This document shows positions 859 through 19,297 of a stretch of 19,805 nt of DNA, one piece after another; position 1 is the first letter of the stretch; every line of letters starts with the position of its first letter. The notes below the pieces were generated by a model. The model saw only the letters and a list, made by a program, of their open reading frames with translations. It was not told the origin of the DNA and made no database searches. Both the position numbers and the translations under genes were made by a program. Source of the DNA: an uncultured Polaromonas sp. (GTDB taxonomy: Bacteria > Pseudomonadota > Gammaproteobacteria > Burkholderiales > Burkholderiaceae); assembly GCA_946479075.1 (NCBI GenBank), contig CAMLDT010000044.1:1-19805 (forward strand). The letters are read 5' to 3'.

Positions 859-1830
859 TCATCCCGACAGGAAGTTTTCGATCAGGCTGGCAAGCTGTTC
901 CGGCTGGTCGTGGTGCAGCATGTGGCCGGCGTCCTGAACCAGGGCTGTGGCCAGTTGCGGGACAGACTTCAGGCGCTCGTGGTACTCGGCCAGCGTGTAT
1001 TTGCCCTGCCACCATTTGCCCAGCGAATCGTCCGACGCCTCGATGGCCAGCGTCGGCGCGCTGATGCAGCGGTAAATCTCCAGGACTTCATCGACACGGT
1101 AAAGCTGGGCGTTGGTGATCTTGTGGGCGGCGTCGCCCAGGATGTTCCATTGGCCCTGGTCGTCGGGCGCCGCCCATTGCCGCGCCAGCCAGTCGGCCTT
1201 GTCCTGCGTCAGGCGCGGGTTGGTGCGCATCAGGCGCCGCGCCACGCCGTCGGCATCGGCATAGGCCTTGAGCGCCATGTCGCCGCGGTGCAGGCTTTTG
1301 AGTTCGTCCATCCACTTGGCATAACGGCCGGGCGCCTGGCTGGCCCGCGTGGCCGGCATGCCAAAACCTTCCAGGTTGACCAGCTTGCGGATGCGCGCGG
1401 GCCGCACACCGCTGTAGAGCATGGCCACATTGCCGCCCATGCTGTGGCCGACCAGGTCCACCGGCTGGGCGCTGGCGTAGTGGTCCAGAAGGAAATCGAG
1501 GTCGGCCAGGTAGTCGGGGAACCAGAAGTTATCCGGTGCCCCCACGCTTGACGCTGCATTCGCCTGTTCGTCCTGAGCTTGTCGAAGGATGCCCCGGGTC
1601 CCGGTTTTGCCATAACCGCGCCAGTCGGGTGCAATGATGCTGCGCCCTTGCACGAAGGCGTCGGACAGGGCATCAACAACAAACTGGTAGGACGCGGCCA
1701 CATCCATCCAGCCGTGGACCAAAACAAGGGGGGGCAGGGTGCTTATGGCCTCGCCCCAGTGGCGCACGTGGTAGTTGATGCCGCGTATAGGGACAAACTC
1801 GCTGCGGGAGAGGCGTTTTTCTTTGTACAT
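859..1830 (-). CDS. Alpha/beta hydrolase fold protein
   Basis: About 323 residues. The fold's marks are visible in order: the oxyanion-hole region LVLVHGWMD near residue 40, the nucleophile elbow GHSMGG with Ser near 130, a candidate acid in EASDDS near 266, and the catalytic His in AGHMLHH near 303. The substrate is unknown; it is probably a soluble esterase- or epoxide-hydrolase-like enzyme. Residues about 79-98 are unusual: between the conserved GYGKTG and FWFPDYLADLD blocks sits a segment encoded by a short repetitive DNA element (see the repeat at 1538-1590). ATG at 1830 is chosen; a GTG at 1836 would add two residues. Neither has a clear ribosome site. The start faces the synthetase start with 7 bases between them. 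The pairing with an acyl-CoA synthetase suggests a role in acyl ester or lipid metabolism, but that is inference. Confidence 0.85.
   Translation of the reverse strand: MYKEKRLSRSEFVPIRGINYHVRHWGEAISTLPPLVLVHGWMDVAASYQFVVDALSDAFVQGRSIIAPDWRGYGKTGTRGILRQAQDEQANAASSVGAPDNFWFPDYLADLDFLLDHYASAQPVDLVGHSMGGNVAMLYSGVRPARIRKLVNLEGFGMPATRASQAPGRYAKWMDELKSLHRGDMALKAYADADGVARRLMRTNPRLTQDKADWLARQWAAPDDQGQWNILGDAAHKITNAQLYRVDEVLEIYRCISAPTLAIEASDDSLGKWWQGKYTLAEYHERLKSVPQLATALVQDAGHMLHHDQPEQLASLIENFLSG
1538..1590 (-). repeat. Short dispersed repeat inserted in frame in the hydrolase gene
   Basis: Positions 1566-1590 carry GTTCGTCCTGAGCTTG followed by TCGAAGGAT, a sequence I recognise as a frequent intergenic repeat in proteobacterial genomes (on the other strand it contains TTCGACAAGCTCAGGA). 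Positions 1538-1549, read on the minus strand, are AAGCGTGGGGGC, the same 12 bases that end the repeat inside the neighbouring synthetase gene at 3139-3150. The whole stretch is translated in the hydrolase as about 20 extra residues and keeps the frame open. Confidence 0.65.
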
Positions 1831-1837
1831 TGACACG

Positions 1838-3799
1838 ATGATAAAGAGACTTACCCCGCGGCGCAGTCAAGGCAGGGACAAAGCCGCCGCGCCGGCCACC
1901 GATGCGTATGCCGCCCTGCACCAGGGCTTTCGCTGGCAGGTGGACACCCACTTCAATATCGCGCAGGTCTGTTGCCGGCGCTGGGCCGATGCGCCGGATG
2001 CTACTGAAAGAATAGCTGTCCACGCCCACCAGCCGGGGGCTGCGGGAACTTTTTATACATATTCACAATTGCAGCAGGCGGCCGATGCGCTCAGCCACGC
2101 GCTGGTGCAGCTCAGTGTGAAGCGCGGCGACCGCGTGGCCATCGTGATGCCCCAGCGGTTCGAAACGGCGGTGGCCTACATGGCGGTGTTCCAGATGGGC
2201 GCGGTGGCGATGCCGCTGTCCATGCTGTTCGGCCCCGAGGCGCTGGAGTACCGCCTGCAGGACAGCGACGCGGTGCTGGCGATCTGTGACGAAAGTTCGA
2301 TGGACAACATCCAGGCGGTGCGCAGCCGTTGCCCGGCCCTGCGCACTGTGATGGCCGCCGGTTCGGCCGTGGGCCAAGGGGATGTGGACTACGCCACAGC
2401 CCTGGCCGCGCAGCAGCGCGCCTTCACCGCAGTTAAAACCAAAGCCGATGACGCGGCCATCCTGATCTACACCAGCGGCACCACTGGCCCGCCCAAGGGC
2501 GCGCTGCTGGCGCATCGTGCGCTGATCGGCAACCTGCCGGGTTTTGTCTGCAGCCAGAACTGGTTTGGGTTCAACCCTTACACGGACCGCCAGACTCCCT
2601 CCCCCGTGCGGGGGAGGGCAGGGGTGGGGGCGAACACAAAAAGGGCAACGCCCAGCAAGGGTGACCAGAACACGTCAGTGTTCTGGTCACCCGCAGACTG
2701 GGCCTGGACCGGTGGTCTGATGGACGCCCTGTTGCCGACCCTGTATTTCGGCCGGCCCATCGTGGCCTTCAACGGGCGCTTCAGCCCGGAGCTGGCTTTC
2801 AGCCTGATGCAGCAGCACGGCGTGACCCACACGTTTTTGTTTCCGACGGCGCTCAAGGCCATGATGAAGGCCTACCCGCATCCGCTGCGCCACTTCCGGC
2901 TCCAGCTGCAAGCCATGATGAGTGCCGGTGAGGCAGTCGGCGACGCGGTGTTTGCCTGGTGCCGCGATGAGCTCGGGGTCGTGGTCAACGAGATGTTCGG
3001 CCAGACCGAGATCAACTACATCGTGGGAAATTGCAGCATGAATCGCTCCCTGCCGGAGGCAACTGCTGCCGCCGCAGCGCAGGGCCGCCCCAAGCAAGGC
3101 ACGGCCCCCTCGGGAGGCAGCGCATTACACGAAGTGAAAAGCGTGGGGGCTGTCGGATGGCCAGCCCGGCCGGGCAGCATGGGCAAGGGCTACCCCGGGC
3201 ACCGGGTGGCGGTGATCGATGACGACGGCAAGGAGTGTGCGGTGGGCGTGCCGGGCGATGTGGCGGTGAACCGCTTCGACATCCACGGCGATCCGGACCC
3301 GATTTTTTTCCTGGGGTACTGGAAGAAAGACGAGGCCACCCAGGCCAAATTCACCGGCGACTGGTGCCGCACCGGCGACGTGGCCACACGCGACGCCGAC
3401 GGCTACCTCTGGTACCAGGGCCGCGCCGACGATGTGTTCAAGGCGGCCGGCTACCGCATCGGCCCCGGTGAAATCGAGAACTGCCTGGTCAAGCACCCCG
3501 CCGTGGCCAACGCCGCGGTGGTGCCCAAGCCCGACCGCGAACGCGGCGCACTGGTCAAGGCCTATGTGGTGCTTGCTCCTGATTTCATAGCTGCTCGCGC
3601 CCGCCAGACGGGGGCTGAGGCCCGATTTGATGCTGAACTGGTGGTCCAGTTGCAGGATCACGTGCGTGGCCTGCTGGCACCGTATGAATACCCCAAGGAG
3701 ATCGAATTCATCGACGCCCTGCCGATGACTACCACCGGTAAGGTCCAGCGCCGCGTGTTGCGGCTGCAGGAAGAAGAGCGTTTCCGCCGCGCAGGCTGA
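1838..3799 (+). CDS. AMP-dependent acyl-CoA synthetase (ACSM/acetyl-CoA synthetase-like) with in-frame repeat insertions
   Basis: An adenylate-forming enzyme of about 653 residues that should activate a carboxylic acid with ATP and join it to CoA. The AMP-binding loop YTSGTTGPPKG is at about 211-221, the NEMFGQTE block near 388, GDWCRTGD near 507, the hinge region GYLWYQGRADDVFKAAGYRIGP just after it, and the C-terminal catalytic Lys in TTGKVQRR near 635. All core motifs are intact, so the enzyme is probably active. It is about 100 residues longer than I expect for this family. The excess falls in three blocks (about 250-286, 401-438 and 579-595) that are encoded by repetitive, hairpin-forming DNA. 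The native flanks can be read around each, for example NYIVGNCS before and GWPARPGSMGKGYPGH after the second. ATG at 1838 is chosen because family homology begins about 25 residues later; no strong ribosome site is seen. The gene ends in a strong terminator shared with the convergent lipoprotein gene. Confidence 0.9.
   Translation: MIKRLTPRRSQGRDKAAAPATDAYAALHQGFRWQVDTHFNIAQVCCRRWADAPDATERIAVHAHQPGAAGTFYTYSQLQQAADALSHALVQLSVKRGDRVAIVMPQRFETAVAYMAVFQMGAVAMPLSMLFGPEALEYRLQDSDAVLAICDESSMDNIQAVRSRCPALRTVMAAGSAVGQGDVDYATALAAQQRAFTAVKTKADDAAILIYTSGTTGPPKGALLAHRALIGNLPGFVCSQNWFGFNPYTDRQTPSPVRGRAGVGANTKRATPSKGDQNTSVFWSPADWAWTGGLMDALLPTLYFGRPIVAFNGRFSPELAFSLMQQHGVTHTFLFPTALKAMMKAYPHPLRHFRLQLQAMMSAGEAVGDAVFAWCRDELGVVVNEMFGQTEINYIVGNCSMNRSLPEATAAAAAQGRPKQGTAPSGGSALHEVKSVGAVGWPARPGSMGKGYPGHRVAVIDDDGKECAVGVPGDVAVNRFDIHGDPDPIFFLGYWKKDEATQAKFTGDWCRTGDVATRDADGYLWYQGRADDVFKAAGYRIGPGEIENCLVKHPAVANAAVVPKPDRERGALVKAYVVLAPDFIAARARQTGAEARFDAELVVQLQDHVRGLLAPYEYPKEIEFIDALPMTTTGKVQRRVLRLQEEERFRRAG
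2591..2692 (+). repeat. Palindromic repeat element in the synthetase gene, insertion 1
   Basis: This stretch has two hairpins. Positions 2597-2605 (CCCTCCCCC) pair perfectly with 2610-2618 (GGGGGAGGG) around a GTGC loop, followed by GGCAGGGGTGGGGGCG, a motif I know as a common proteobacterial intergenic repeat. A second, perfect 15-bp inverted repeat lies at 2659-2692. The element is read through in frame as roughly 35 residues with no similarity to the family, between FGFNPY and VFWSPADWAWTGG. Confidence 0.75.
2659..2692. repeat. Perfect 15-bp inverted repeat with 4-base loop
   Basis: GGGTGACCAGAACAC at 2659-2673 is the exact reverse complement of GTGTTCTGGTCACCC at 2678-2692, with GTCA between. 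It lies at the right end of the first insertion in the synthetase gene. No T-run follows, so it is not a standard terminator, and it sits in the middle of a coding region. Confidence 0.85.
3045..3150 (+). repeat. Palindromic repeat element in the synthetase gene, insertion 2
   Basis: Between codons for NYIVGNCS and GWPARPGS lies a GC-rich stretch with at least two hairpins: GCTGC (3065-3069) with GCAGC (3074-3078), and GGGCCG (3082-3087) with CGGCCC (3102-3107). CTGCCGGAGGC near its left end and CCCTCGGGAGGCAG near its right end are features of a repeat that I recall as frequent between genes in Comamonadaceae. It adds about 37 residues, rich in Ala and Gly, and keeps the frame. Its end AAGCGTGGGGGC (3139-3150) is shared with the repeat in the hydrolase gene. 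Confidence 0.7.
3575..3625 (-). repeat. Dispersed GCCC-N9-GGGC repeat, copy C (inside the synthetase gene)
   Basis: On the minus strand this reads AGCCCCCGTCTGGCGGGC, then GCGAGCAGCTATGAAATC and AGGAGC. It is nearly identical to copy B at 17040-17090 and clearly related to copy A at 13697-13744. The hairpin arms are 3599-3602 and 3612-3615 with a 9-base loop. Here the repeat is translated on its opposite strand as APDFIAARARQTGAEAR, an insertion near residue 585 of the synthetase. Confidence 0.85.
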
Positions 3800-10848: not shown

Positions 10849-11196
<348 letters not shown>

Positions 11197-11271
11197 ATAC
11201 CAGTTACCAATAGGTGAAGCATCTTTACGCCTGCACAGCCGTCAGTCAGCACAAGCCCCACGACATTGGCA

Positions 11272-12300
11272 ATGAATATGAGTAAATCAAGACCTTCATT
11301 AGCCCGATCTTCAACCGCCGAGTACCTGACCTTCATTGCTGCTAGCGGCCAAGGGGGCGTGGAGGCTGTGTATGCCGACGAAAACGTGTGGCTCACGCAG
11401 AAGATGCTCGGGCAGTTGTATGACGTAGAGACCCACACCATCAACTATCACTTGAAGAAAGTGTTTGCGGACAGCGAATTGGAGGCCGCTTCAGTTATTC
11501 GAAGTTTTCGAATAACTGCTGCCGACGGCAAAACCTACAACACACAGCACTACAACCTGGCCGCTATCATTTCCGTAGGCTACAAGGTGAACTCCGAGCG
11601 GGCAGTGCAGTTTCGCAAGTGGGCCACGGACGTCATTGAATCGTTCACCATCAAGGGCTATGCGATGGATGACGAGCGCCTCAAGCGCGGCGGTTCTGTC
11701 CTGACCGAGCAGTATTTTGAAGAGCAGCTTGCGCGCATTCGTGAGATTCGCCTCTCGGAGCGCAAGTTCTACCAAAAAATCACCGATATCTACGCCACGT
11801 CTCTCGACTATGACGTGACCGCCCAGGCCACCAAGCGTTTCTTTGCCACGGTGCAAAACAAGCTTCATTGGGCCATTCACGGGCAGACGGCTGCAGAGGT
11901 GGTGTACCACCGCGCGGATGCGAGCAAGGAGCACATGGGGCTGACCTCCTGGACGGATGCGCCAGCGGGCAAGGTTCAGCGGTTTGATGTGGTGGTGGCC
12001 AAGAACTACCTCACAGACGACGAACTGGCCCAGTTGCAGCGGCTGGTATCTGCTTACCTGGATGTAGCTGAGAGCATGGCGCTGCGCAAAATCCCTATGA
12101 CCATGCAAGACTGGGAGACACGCCTCAACCGCTTCATCGAAGCAACCGACCGGGGCGTGCTGCAAGACGCTGGCAAGGTCACCGCCGAAATCGCCAAGGC
12201 CCATGCGGAAAGCGAATTCGAAAAATACCGCATTGTGCAGGACCGGCTGTTTGAAAGCGACTTTGATCGACTCTTGCTGCAGCTACCTGCCAAGCCCTGA
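11272..12300 (+). CDS. rhuM: RhuM family protein (Virulence_RhuM)
   Basis: A full-length RhuM family protein of about 342 residues. Family blocks are clear: VWLTQKMLGQLYDVETHTINYHLKKVF near 40-65 (helix-turn-helix-like), AADGKTYNTQHYNLAAIISVGYKVNS near 85-110, LSERKFYQKITDIYATSLDYD near 160, FFATVQNKLHWAIHGQTAAEV near 195, and SEFEKYRIVQDRLFESDFDRLL near the end. RhuM was named from Salmonella pathogenicity island 3; its molecular role is not settled, and relatives are common on mobile islands. ATG at 11272 is chosen; TTG at 11266 and ATG at 11278 are alternatives. No strong ribosome site is near, although AGGTGA lies at 11212-11217. The gene converges with argG and shares its terminator. The promoter suggests SOS induction. 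Confidence 0.9.
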   Translation: MNMSKSRPSLARSSTAEYLTFIAASGQGGVEAVYADENVWLTQKMLGQLYDVETHTINYHLKKVFADSELEAASVIRSFRITAADGKTYNTQHYNLAAIISVGYKVNSERAVQFRKWATDVIESFTIKGYAMDDERLKRGGSVLTEQYFEEQLARIREIRLSERKFYQKITDIYATSLDYDVTAQATKRFFATVQNKLHWAIHGQTAAEVVYHRADASKEHMGLTSWTDAPAGKVQRFDVVVAKNYLTDDELAQLQRLVSAYLDVAESMALRKIPMTMQDWETRLNRFIEATDRGVLQDAGKVTAEIAKAHAESEFEKYRIVQDRLFESDFDRLLLQLPAKP

Positions 12301-12357: not shown

Positions 12358-13744
<1,387 letters not shown>

Positions 13745-13769
13745 GAACCTGGGAGGAGCCGCCTGCGGA

Positions 13770-14886: not shown

Positions 14887-15663
14887 ATGAATATCACGCG
14901 TAACCCCTCGCTGGTGGAGCAACTGGCCGCCAGTTATGCGCTGGGCACGCTGCGTGGCGGCGCCCGCCGCCGCTTTGAGGCGCTGGCGCGCACACACGCC
15001 TCGGTGCGTGCGGCCGCGCTGATCTGGCAGGGGCGGATGGCTTCCGTGGCTGAATTGCAGCCGCAGGCCGCGCCCAGCCCGGCGGTGTGGAAACGCATCG
15101 AAAACCTCGTGGCTGCCGACAGGCAGGCCAAGGCCATGCAGGCTGCGCGAAGTGCACCGGTCCCCGCGACAGGCGGCTGGTGGGCCAGTCTGGGCCTGTG
15201 GCGCGGTGCCACGGCCGCGGGTGCCATGGCCGCCGTGGTGGCGGTGGTCACCGGCCTGAACCTGAACACCGCGCTCAACGGTCAGGTGCAGCAGCTCAGC
15301 GCCCGCCTGGCTGCCACGCCCGAGATCCAGTACGTGGCGGTGCTGGCCGATGACAAATCCGCACCTTCGGTGCTGGTGACCTACGACCCGAAACACAGCC
15401 AGCTGCAGCTCAAACACGTGGGCCAGTTCCATCCTTCGCCCGACAAATCGCTGCAGCTCTGGGCGCTGCCGCAGGGCGGCGGTGCCAAGTCACTGGGTGT
15501 GTTGGGTGACGGCACGGTGGTGCGTCTGCCGGCCGGCAGCGATGCCGTCAATCAGGTGCCGGCGCTGGCCATCAGCCTGGAGCCCAAAGGCGGCGTGCCG
15601 GCAGGCAGCGGGCCGAGCGGGCCGGTGTTGTTCAAGGGCGCGCTGATCCAGACCACGCTCTGA
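14887..15663 (+). CDS. Anti-sigma factor, RskA-like, membrane-anchored
   Basis: A 258-residue protein. Residues 1-80 form the cytoplasmic sigma-binding part (SLVEQLAASYALGTLRGGARRRFEALA), without the HxxxCxxC zinc motif of other anti-sigma factors. One transmembrane helix lies at about 105-125 (TAAGAMAAVVAVVTGLNL). The extracytoplasmic domain at about 150-258 (QYVAVLADDKSAPSVLVTYDPKHSQLQL, KSLQLWALPQGGGAKSLGVL, LAISLEPKGGVPAGSGPSGPVLFKG) is typical of RskA. It should hold the upstream sigma factor at the membrane until released by regulated proteolysis. AGAAGG precedes the ATG. A strong terminator follows the stop, closing a two-gene operon. Confidence 0.93.
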   Translation: MNITRNPSLVEQLAASYALGTLRGGARRRFEALARTHASVRAAALIWQGRMASVAELQPQAAPSPAVWKRIENLVAADRQAKAMQAARSAPVPATGGWWASLGLWRGATAAGAMAAVVAVVTGLNLNTALNGQVQQLSARLAATPEIQYVAVLADDKSAPSVLVTYDPKHSQLQLKHVGQFHPSPDKSLQLWALPQGGGAKSLGVLGDGTVVRLPAGSDAVNQVPALAISLEPKGGVPAGSGPSGPVLFKGALIQTTL

Positions 15664-15672
15664 GCCCGCCAC

Positions 15673-15713
15673 CCCACAAAAAAGGGCTGCATCTGCAGCC
15701 CTTTTTTTGTGGG
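15673..15713. terminator. Bidirectional intrinsic terminator
   Basis: CCCACAAAAAAGGGCTGC at 15673-15690 pairs almost perfectly with GCAGCCCTTTTTTTGTGGG at 15695-15713 around ATCT. It lies between the convergent anti-sigma gene (+) and the glycine-zipper gene (-). Confidence 0.93.
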
Positions 15714-15739
15714 TGACGTGATGTCGCCTGCGTAACCGC

Positions 15740-17004: not shown

Positions 17005-17039
17005 GGGCTGATTTTGCCATGAATTCATGCATCAAAAGT

Positions 17040-17090
17040 GGCCCCAGCCCCCGGCTGGCGGGCGCAAGCAGCTATGAATTCAGGAGCAAA
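17040..17090 (+). repeat. Dispersed GCCC-N9-GGGC repeat, copy B (yffB-folC gap)
   Basis: GGCCCCAGCCCCCGGCTGGC, GGGC at 17060-17063, then GCAAGCAGCTATGAATTC and AGGAGCAAA. Arms GCCC (17047-17050) and GGGC enclose a 9-base loop. It is nearly identical to copy C in the synthetase gene (reverse orientation). It occupies much of the divergent gap between yffB and folC. Confidence 0.88.
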
Positions 17091-18511: not shown

Positions 18512-19297
18512 ATGCCGTTTTTCAACTTTCGTCGGAGCCCATCCCCTGCTGCAGCCGGAGCGGCCGGCCCCTCCGAGAGTGTCGAAGCCATGCGCAAGCG
18601 CGCCAAACACCGACTGATCGGCGCGGTCGTGCTGGTGCTGATCGGCGTGATCGGGTTTCCGCTGCTGTTCGACACCCAGCCGCGGCCTGTGGCGGTGGAC
18701 ATTCCGATTGAAATCCCCGGCAAAAACACGGTCAAACCGCTGGTGATGCCGGCGCCTGCCGTGGCGCCAGCGCCCAAGGTCGCCGCCAGCGCCCCCGTGG
18801 CCGCGAGCGAAAAAGTGGCGGCGCCGTCCAGTCTGGAGCCCCGCGAAGAAATTGTGTCAGAAAAGGCTGCAGCCCTCGCCACACCTGCGCCACCTGCTAC
18901 CAAAACAGAAGCAAAACCAGAACCCGCAAAACCAGAACCCACAAAAACAGAGCCCAAATCGACGGCCAAGACACCGGTCTCCAGTGACGACGCAGCGCGC
19001 GCCAAGGCGCTGCTCGAAGGCAAGACGGTGGCACCGGCCGCGGCCAAGGTCGCCAGCGCCGAGGCCGAGGGCCGGGTGGTGGTCCAGGTCGGCGCGTTTG
19101 CTGATGAAAGCAAGGCGCGCGAAGTGCGGCAAAAGCTGGAGCGTGCGGGCCTCAAAACCTACACCCAGGTCGCCGAGACCAAAGACGGCAAACGCATCCG
19201 GGTCCGGGTCGGGCCGTTTGCCACCCGGGCCGACGCCGACAAGGCAGCCAGCAAGATCAAGGGCCTTGATTTGCCCGCCGCCATCCTGACCTTGTAG
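18512..19297 (+). CDS. dedD: SPOR-domain cell division protein, DedD-like
   Basis: A 261-residue inner membrane protein. A basic cytoplasmic start (EAMRKRAKHR) precedes one transmembrane helix at about 34-52 (LIGAVVLVLIGVIGFPLLF). A long periplasmic linker rich in Ala, Pro, Lys and Glu (about 70-170) leads to a C-terminal SPOR domain at about 185-258 (VVVQVGAFADESKAREVRQKLERAGLKTYTQ, GKRIRVRVGPFATRADADKAASKIKGL). SPOR domains bind denuded peptidoglycan at the septum, and DedD supports septal wall synthesis. The place between folC and cvpA supports the DedD assignment. Confidence 0.92.
   Translation: MPFFNFRRSPSPAAAGAAGPSESVEAMRKRAKHRLIGAVVLVLIGVIGFPLLFDTQPRPVAVDIPIEIPGKNTVKPLVMPAPAVAPAPKVAASAPVAASEKVAAPSSLEPREEIVSEKAAALATPAPPATKTEAKPEPAKPEPTKTEPKSTAKTPVSSDDAARAKALLEGKTVAPAAAKVASAEAEGRVVVQVGAFADESKAREVRQKLERAGLKTYTQVAETKDGKRIRVRVGPFATRADADKAASKIKGLDLPAAILTL
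18898..18958 (+). repeat. A-rich low-complexity repeat in dedD
   Basis: About three imperfect copies of AAAACCAGAACCC/AAAACAGAGCCC units encode the KPEPAKPEPTKTEPK part of the periplasmic linker. This is a common feature of DedD/TonB-type linkers. Confidence 0.7.

Follow-up and report, generated by a model that had tools for sequence, protein, structure and literature searches.

Palindromic repeats lying in frame within proteins are already known, from the Rickettsia palindromic elements (RPEs), from REPs and from the repeat BRE. Published accounts describe RPEs as ~100-nt hairpin repeats found between genes and in frame within conserved proteins, a tagged Gmk being both made and active (PMC2229807); REPs in genes as short palindromes within ORFs, with double insertions and many DNA repair genes among their hosts, in O. 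terrae, Thauera and others (PMC3733652); and BRE as a repeat of about 90 bp that forms tandem copies, counts 29 copies in Polaromonas JS666, and in some cases lies entirely within coding sequences (PMC3110155). Template switching is described as homogenizing the arms of short inverted repeats in coding DNA (PMC8604942), and coding inverted repeats are reported from mitochondrial genes (PMC6649704). The first-pass annotation of the DNA studied here knew of no description of such repeats for this betaproteobacterial group. For betaproteobacteria, intragenic repeats had been reported earlier, as BRE, with counts for Polaromonas and others (PMC3110155), and as REP-tagged genes of Thauera (PMC3733652).

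We analyzed a 19,805-nt stretch of Polaromonas DNA (the window) in which one acyl-CoA synthetase gene carries three in-frame repeat blocks, A, B and C. Blocks A and B resemble RPEs in being hairpin repeats in frame in protein genes and missing in many orthologues; they differ in host and presumably in sequence, in that several families occur at one site, and in that the first part of block A, here called element E, was found only in genes and with an inverted copy of host-gene flank. E also sits in recG, which encodes a repair helicase, and in this it resembles the short intragenic palindromes among REPs, from which it differs in that inspection by eye shows neither a GTAG nor a CGTC tag and that no RAYT (REP-associated tyrosine transposase) was seen beside it. 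In the REP report, moreover, intragenic copies are a minority of large families (PMC3733652). Block B may belong to BRE: going by description only, the two are alike in length, in forming tandem arrays and in occurring in JS666; an insertion hotspot and host-flank copying go unmentioned for BRE in the accessible part of its description (PMC3110155). Unlike in the known template-switch systems, one arm here is an inserted repeat that becomes a new protein loop. A cross-family hotspot, a flank copy and a distribution like that of E over three genes were not found in the literature searched, which took in little subscription literature. Our reading, to which we give a probability of roughly 0.68, is that tolerant loops are colonized in frame by several hairpin families, three at once in the window, with the flank of E copied by fold-back and the arms matched by template switching.

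The synthetase gene (1838-3799, plus strand) is an uninterrupted ORF of 653 aa of the AMP-forming type, with both AMP-binding (PF00501) and AMP-binding_C (PF13193) domains. Among the matches listed, the closest protein, from a Polaromonas sp. metagenome assembly, has 87% identity, and the best 120 listed relatives range from 567 to 702 residues. The alignment comprised the window's gene and its counterparts on 80 named genome contigs (81 loci); one open frame is kept in 81/81, these orthologues having been picked by protein similarity, so that broken copies may have been missed. Length variation falls mostly in a few gaps flanked by conserved stretches: site A (residues 246-281; 9 to 82 residues across the 81 loci), site B (residues 400-440; 3 to 96 residues) and site C (residues 580-604; 13 to 34 residues), with smaller variable gaps at residues 51-77, 169-200 and 348-352. 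At site A (2573-2680, plus strand) the window has 36 residues against a commonest insert-free length of 11, at site B (3035-3157, plus strand) 41 against 3, and at site C 25 against the 13 of a shorter form, so that blocks A, B and C add 25, 38 and 12 residues, respectively. The first-pass annotation had described an open synthetase gene with its catalytic domains and three blocks, each from a different repeat family, that keep the frame and fall between conserved motifs, and the domain search and the alignment bear this out; its estimate of about 100 extra residues was too high, the excess being ~75 over the short state at each site and 58 over the insert-free relative P0021 (595 aa). It had also treated all three blocks as extras of this one gene; A and B are indeed missing in many orthologues, whereas C is old and not peculiar to this gene copy, 58/81 having the same length there. 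An AlphaFold model built on 33 close orthologues had a mean pLDDT of 36.7 and was left unused. The window had no Rfam match at gathering thresholds.

Block C is old and widely shared. It belongs to a repeat family, family C, whose profile we built from 23 copies taken outside the synthetase, leaving out loci known to hold it, and this profile matches 3573-3633 (plus strand) at 56.8 bits (E 2.8e-17). Site C has the window's length in 58/81 orthologues, the window counted, and a 13-residue form in 10/81; as DNA, 28/81 loci score at least 20 bits for family C. The solved homologue 5u2a, on which insert positions were placed by sequence alone, is without the 12 residues of block C. Family C also lies between genes in the window, as had been claimed for one of the blocks, at 13686-13746 (52.1 bits) and 17028-17089 (60.1 bits), both on the minus strand. 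Overlooked at first was a fourth repeat match within the synthetase, at 1999-2057 (plus strand; 25.1 bits, E 2.3e-7), which adds no length and is 77% complementary to 17027-17088. GACG is present in block C only within its hairpin. A weak family C match (18853-18914, minus strand, 20.8 bits) lies inside ORF 18512-19297, and the family is read in frame (APEFIA) in three ORFs, from L147, L165 and L166, that share an AFGCE...WINLEYLSAE motif and that we take to be EarP, so a further gene is hit by family C in several genomes.

Families B and C, counted in the genomes of ten relatives, both have many copies in most of them; at most 40 candidates were scored per genome. For family C, a first look gave 77-157 candidates per genome in six Polaromonas and 20-32 in the remaining four genomes, of which two are also Polaromonas. 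For family B it gave 116-139 candidates per genome in five Polaromonas, then 40, 83 and 69 in three more (69 in JS666), 29 in a Ramlibacter and 36 in a Curvibacter genome. The family B repeat lies within block B at 3070-3150 (plus strand); at E<=1, every one of the eight Polaromonas genomes has between 36 and 66 matches to it, the Ramlibacter 18 and the Curvibacter 32. In the nearest relative, the same gene has a copy sharing 98% identity with block B, and a further copy in that genome shares 95% (E 5e-31). Block B shows neither a GTAG nor a CGTC tag (by eye). Family B fills site B in 15/81 loci, in tandem in L013, L016 and L060, and in L053 and L072 the site B peptide resembles a reading of the opposite strand of the repeat.

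Family B also enters other genes in frame, and the earlier comparison with RPEs is sound in this respect, as it is for palindromic repeats in frame within the synthetase. We sampled 44 family B places in three Polaromonas genomes: 15 lie within a spanning coding-like frame, of which 12 use the same strand of the repeat (11 sharing a phase) and 3 the opposite one, and 29 have no such frame; the rule for a coding-like frame is rough and the places were drawn from high-scoring matches, so that 15/44 is no genome-wide rate. Ten ORFs with family B inserts, nine from this sample and one from a Curvibacter genome (L117), all match Pfam families, and in six of the ten (L246, L252, L268, L257, L272 and L240) the insert splits, stretches or truncates the matched domain.

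Block A combines two parts, E and an inverted copy that fits the codons of its own species better than those of others. E is a 44-nt hairpin repeat (2595-2638, plus strand), delimited by alignment and pattern searches, whose consensus has no stops in any of six frames. It is followed by the inverted copy (2650-2673; 21/25 aligned bases, with a 15-bp perfect core), a 4-nt loop (2674-2677) and the native palindrome arm (2678-2703, codons V-F-W-S-P-A-D-W-A), all on the plus strand. The claim that block A is repeat DNA thus stands for 2595-2638 and falls for 2650-2673, where codons of the gene itself are copied in inverted orientation. Across loci the copy spans ~23-30 nt of the downstream codons F-W-S-P-A-D-W-A. 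When the tail of the insert is compared with the reverse-complemented flank of the same locus, 16/16 loci fit (mean z 7.4, range 4.0 to 10.8); the corresponding score is 0.5 for the 50 insert-free loci and -0.07 for 15 others. Nine further E-bearing orthologues fit their own flank too, making 25/26, with 23/23 positions fitting in L068; the sole exception, L075, has E in a truncated insert with the inverted copy missing. On the 5' side, the best palindrome scores lie at 14-19 for seven of the eight loci examined; the window reaches 24, at a distance of 136 nt.

Several comparisons, in none of which kinship was controlled, indicate that the copy tends to match its own locus. Folding with the own flank gives -26.2 kcal/mol against -21.7 with shuffled flanks (16 loci, permutation p 1e-5), the own flank ranking best in 8/16 loci, and base matches to the own flank total 427 over 19 loci, where shuffling gives 395 on average (0/20,000 shuffles as high, permutation p<=5e-5). 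Of 479 comparisons in which two loci have different flank bases, the arm has changed with the flank in 267, is unchanged in 133 and shows another base in 79, and it mostly fails to follow in two columns, 3 and 12. Among near pairs, seven have differences and only L063/L080 shows good following (4/6), the others giving 1/2 (L213/L215 and window/L002), 1/3 (L050/L051), 1/4 (L001/L003 and L035/L044) and 0/2 (L003/L004), some of these differences being arm gaps. By eye, L295, L296 and L298 have GAT where others have GAC, and their inverted copy reads accordingly. The question whether relatives hold the same blocks has a divided answer: the same E lies at the same site in several genera, but the flank copy tends to follow each species' own codons.

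E has a distribution unlike that of families B and C, which are abundant in relatives' genomes. The E pattern, taken from the synthetase copies, matched 4/299 genomes of the family at up to 2 mismatches and 8/16 insert-bearing genomes at up to 3; it was present in 5/7 genomes in the genus of genome G080 and 8/50 in that of G009, a slightly shorter pattern matched 2/399 genomes of the order, both already found, and a backwards control pattern had no matches in the searched genomes. These searches, which would miss more diverged copies, gave 30 distinct places, all in frame within three genes (synthetase 18, recG 7, glpK 5), 30/30 stop-free and 0/30 outside genes. The genome of Ramlibacter lithotrophicus has E in all three. 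An 18-base pattern of the 3' part of E found 9 places in 7/10 genomes, all of them known E places. The host assignments are backed by NCBIfam matches above cut-offs for 3/3 glpK and 5/5 recG proteins tested. E is itself a subtype of a wider CCCTCYCC repeat family, which does occur between genes. We considered flank copying as a general property of CCCTCYCC repeats and rejected it, as only 5/56 places in two genomes are followed by a palindrome, which in three cases is the hairpin of another repeat and in two a flank palindrome (glpK and synthetase, in G009), and the background is 5/400 windows. A phage origin of E was ruled against by the lack of any exact match to its pattern in viral_contigs.

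The other two genes repeat the arrangement in part. Three of the five E copies in glpK have perfect inverted copies of 15, 17 and 19 bp, and the other two score at most 1 above the best shuffle. In recG, 5/5 antisense E copies have a palindrome, which in L224 involves a second copy of the recG motif, and two sense copies have no clear one. Where clear, the palindrome is at the 3' side of E, which for antisense E in recG means upstream in the gene. It is a tentative idea, and on balance a doubtful one, that E is a gene-resident, site-preferring mobile palindrome, confined across the Comamonadaceae to particular loops of three conserved proteins (the synthetase, RecG and GlpK), that copies 15-30 nt of host flank inverted at its 3' end on entry and has no intergenic reservoir; if so, it would persist as harmless coding sequence.

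Some loops of the synthetase seem tolerant of extra residues, and different families occur at the same sites in relatives. At site A, with families assigned by eye, the CCCTCCCC-type (E-type) repeat is found in 17/81 loci and the NPLPQAGEG and CTTCGAC types in 3/81 each; 50/81 loci have at most 13 residues and 8/81 are longer and were assigned to no family. Among close relatives, L005 and L008 have NPLPQAGEG, L006 and L009 no insert, and the window and L001-L004 E. A motif count over the best 120 proteins listed, used for the length range only, gave 36 E-like site A inserts and 18 others, of which the 12 inspected look E-derived by eye. In L061, L067 and L079, which we take to be Limnohabitans-like, site A has 34-35 residues ending PEPLVPSV/TV before FWSP, possibly decayed E (by eye). 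The neighboring alpha/beta hydrolase gene (859-1836) has a CTTCGAC-type in-frame insert at about 1534-1590 (minus strand), also found in L007; at this site L001 has family B, and the other 13 of 15 relatives inspected have neither type. In an informal check of 17 loci over 92 flanking codons, nearest neighbors were often insert-free and we saw no sign of local transfer of insert-bearing alleles.

A serious competitor, at somewhat less than even odds, is that a single entry of E into each of the three genes, in an ancestor within the family, was followed by many losses, copies elsewhere having decayed for want of a protein constraint, so that its patchiness would reflect loss. Several genera do have E at one and the same synthetase site, recG and glpK each add a further shared site, L075 has the look of a partial loss, and the three Limnohabitans-like loci may by eye keep decayed remains. 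Many insert-free loci from several genera, however, share a DGxxNxxSxAV-like stretch that repeated excision would hardly restore, and close relatives differ in both state and family at site A. On a synthetase tree made from insert-free columns by a quick method, with 25/78 inner branches weak, the E-type insert at site A requires at least 9 changes against a shuffled minimum of 11 and mean of 15.7, and gain and loss look alike in this count. Family B at site B requires 14 changes against a shuffled mean of 13.9, its presence thus tracking the tree no better than chance. As far as alignments can tell, the native stretch shared by insert-free species would speak for gain, and the shared sites for inheritance.

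Under the reading we prefer, colonization of tolerant loops by several families, hairpin repeats would go into genes and persist wherever they leave the frame open and the added peptide is tolerated by the loop, and the inserts would most likely be translated as loops, judging from their open frames. On entry of E its 3' end may be extended back along the flank, by snap-back or template-switch synthesis. The parts follow one another as E, an inverted copy that begins with the far end of the flank, a loop of 3-4 nt and the native codons, which is the arrangement expected from extension of the 3' end of E along the same strand, turning at the junction. Later template switching between the arms would keep them matched, with the protein-constrained native arm as the usual template. 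Selection on mRNA or DNA structure would also yield matched changes in both arms, and could keep the hairpin in place of template switching; we think this improbable, since in recG, where E is antisense and the palindrome upstream in the gene, the palindrome still stays at the 3' end of E itself whatever the gene direction, and most orthologues do without the hairpin. Movement of E and the other repeats by a RAYT is equally improbable: a single Y1_Tnp gene above cut-off, presumably a RAYT, was detected in all 8 genomes searched, yet none of the four repeat motifs lies around it in 7/8 loci, L238 having one family C motif, and the tags are absent from E as noted. That the ribosome skips the insert, or that it is excised from the RNA and never reaches the protein, might be suggested by the strong hairpins at the insert end, but is highly improbable because 81/81 orthologues and all 30 E places are in frame and without stops, which skipping would not require.

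With these inserts, the range of bacteria whose proteins have been invaded by palindromic repeats comes to include Polaromonas and its kin, where unrelated enzymes have them and three families meet in a single gene. In block A, inverted copying of a flank and matching of the arms are naturally recorded, readable codon by codon, and this readability across species makes fold-back insertion and template switching testable on sequence data. If E is truly confined to three genes, it raises the question of how a transposase-free repeat without intergenic copies spreads or persists. In-frame inserts of this kind can also mislead gene models and structure prediction.

Two other repeats were seen in the window. 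A direct repeat of ~270 nt (10885-11146 and 12427-12697; 92% and 88% identity in two pieces) is a second copy, at 10885-11146, of the 3' part of a gene that we take to be argG-like (12358-13689, minus strand), and between the copies lies ORF 11266-12300, presumably RhuM-like, as if an element had inserted. Directly after ORF 14887-15663 there is a terminator-like, near-perfect inverted repeat (15667-15718) with 25-nt arms, 84% matched, and a 2-nt loop.
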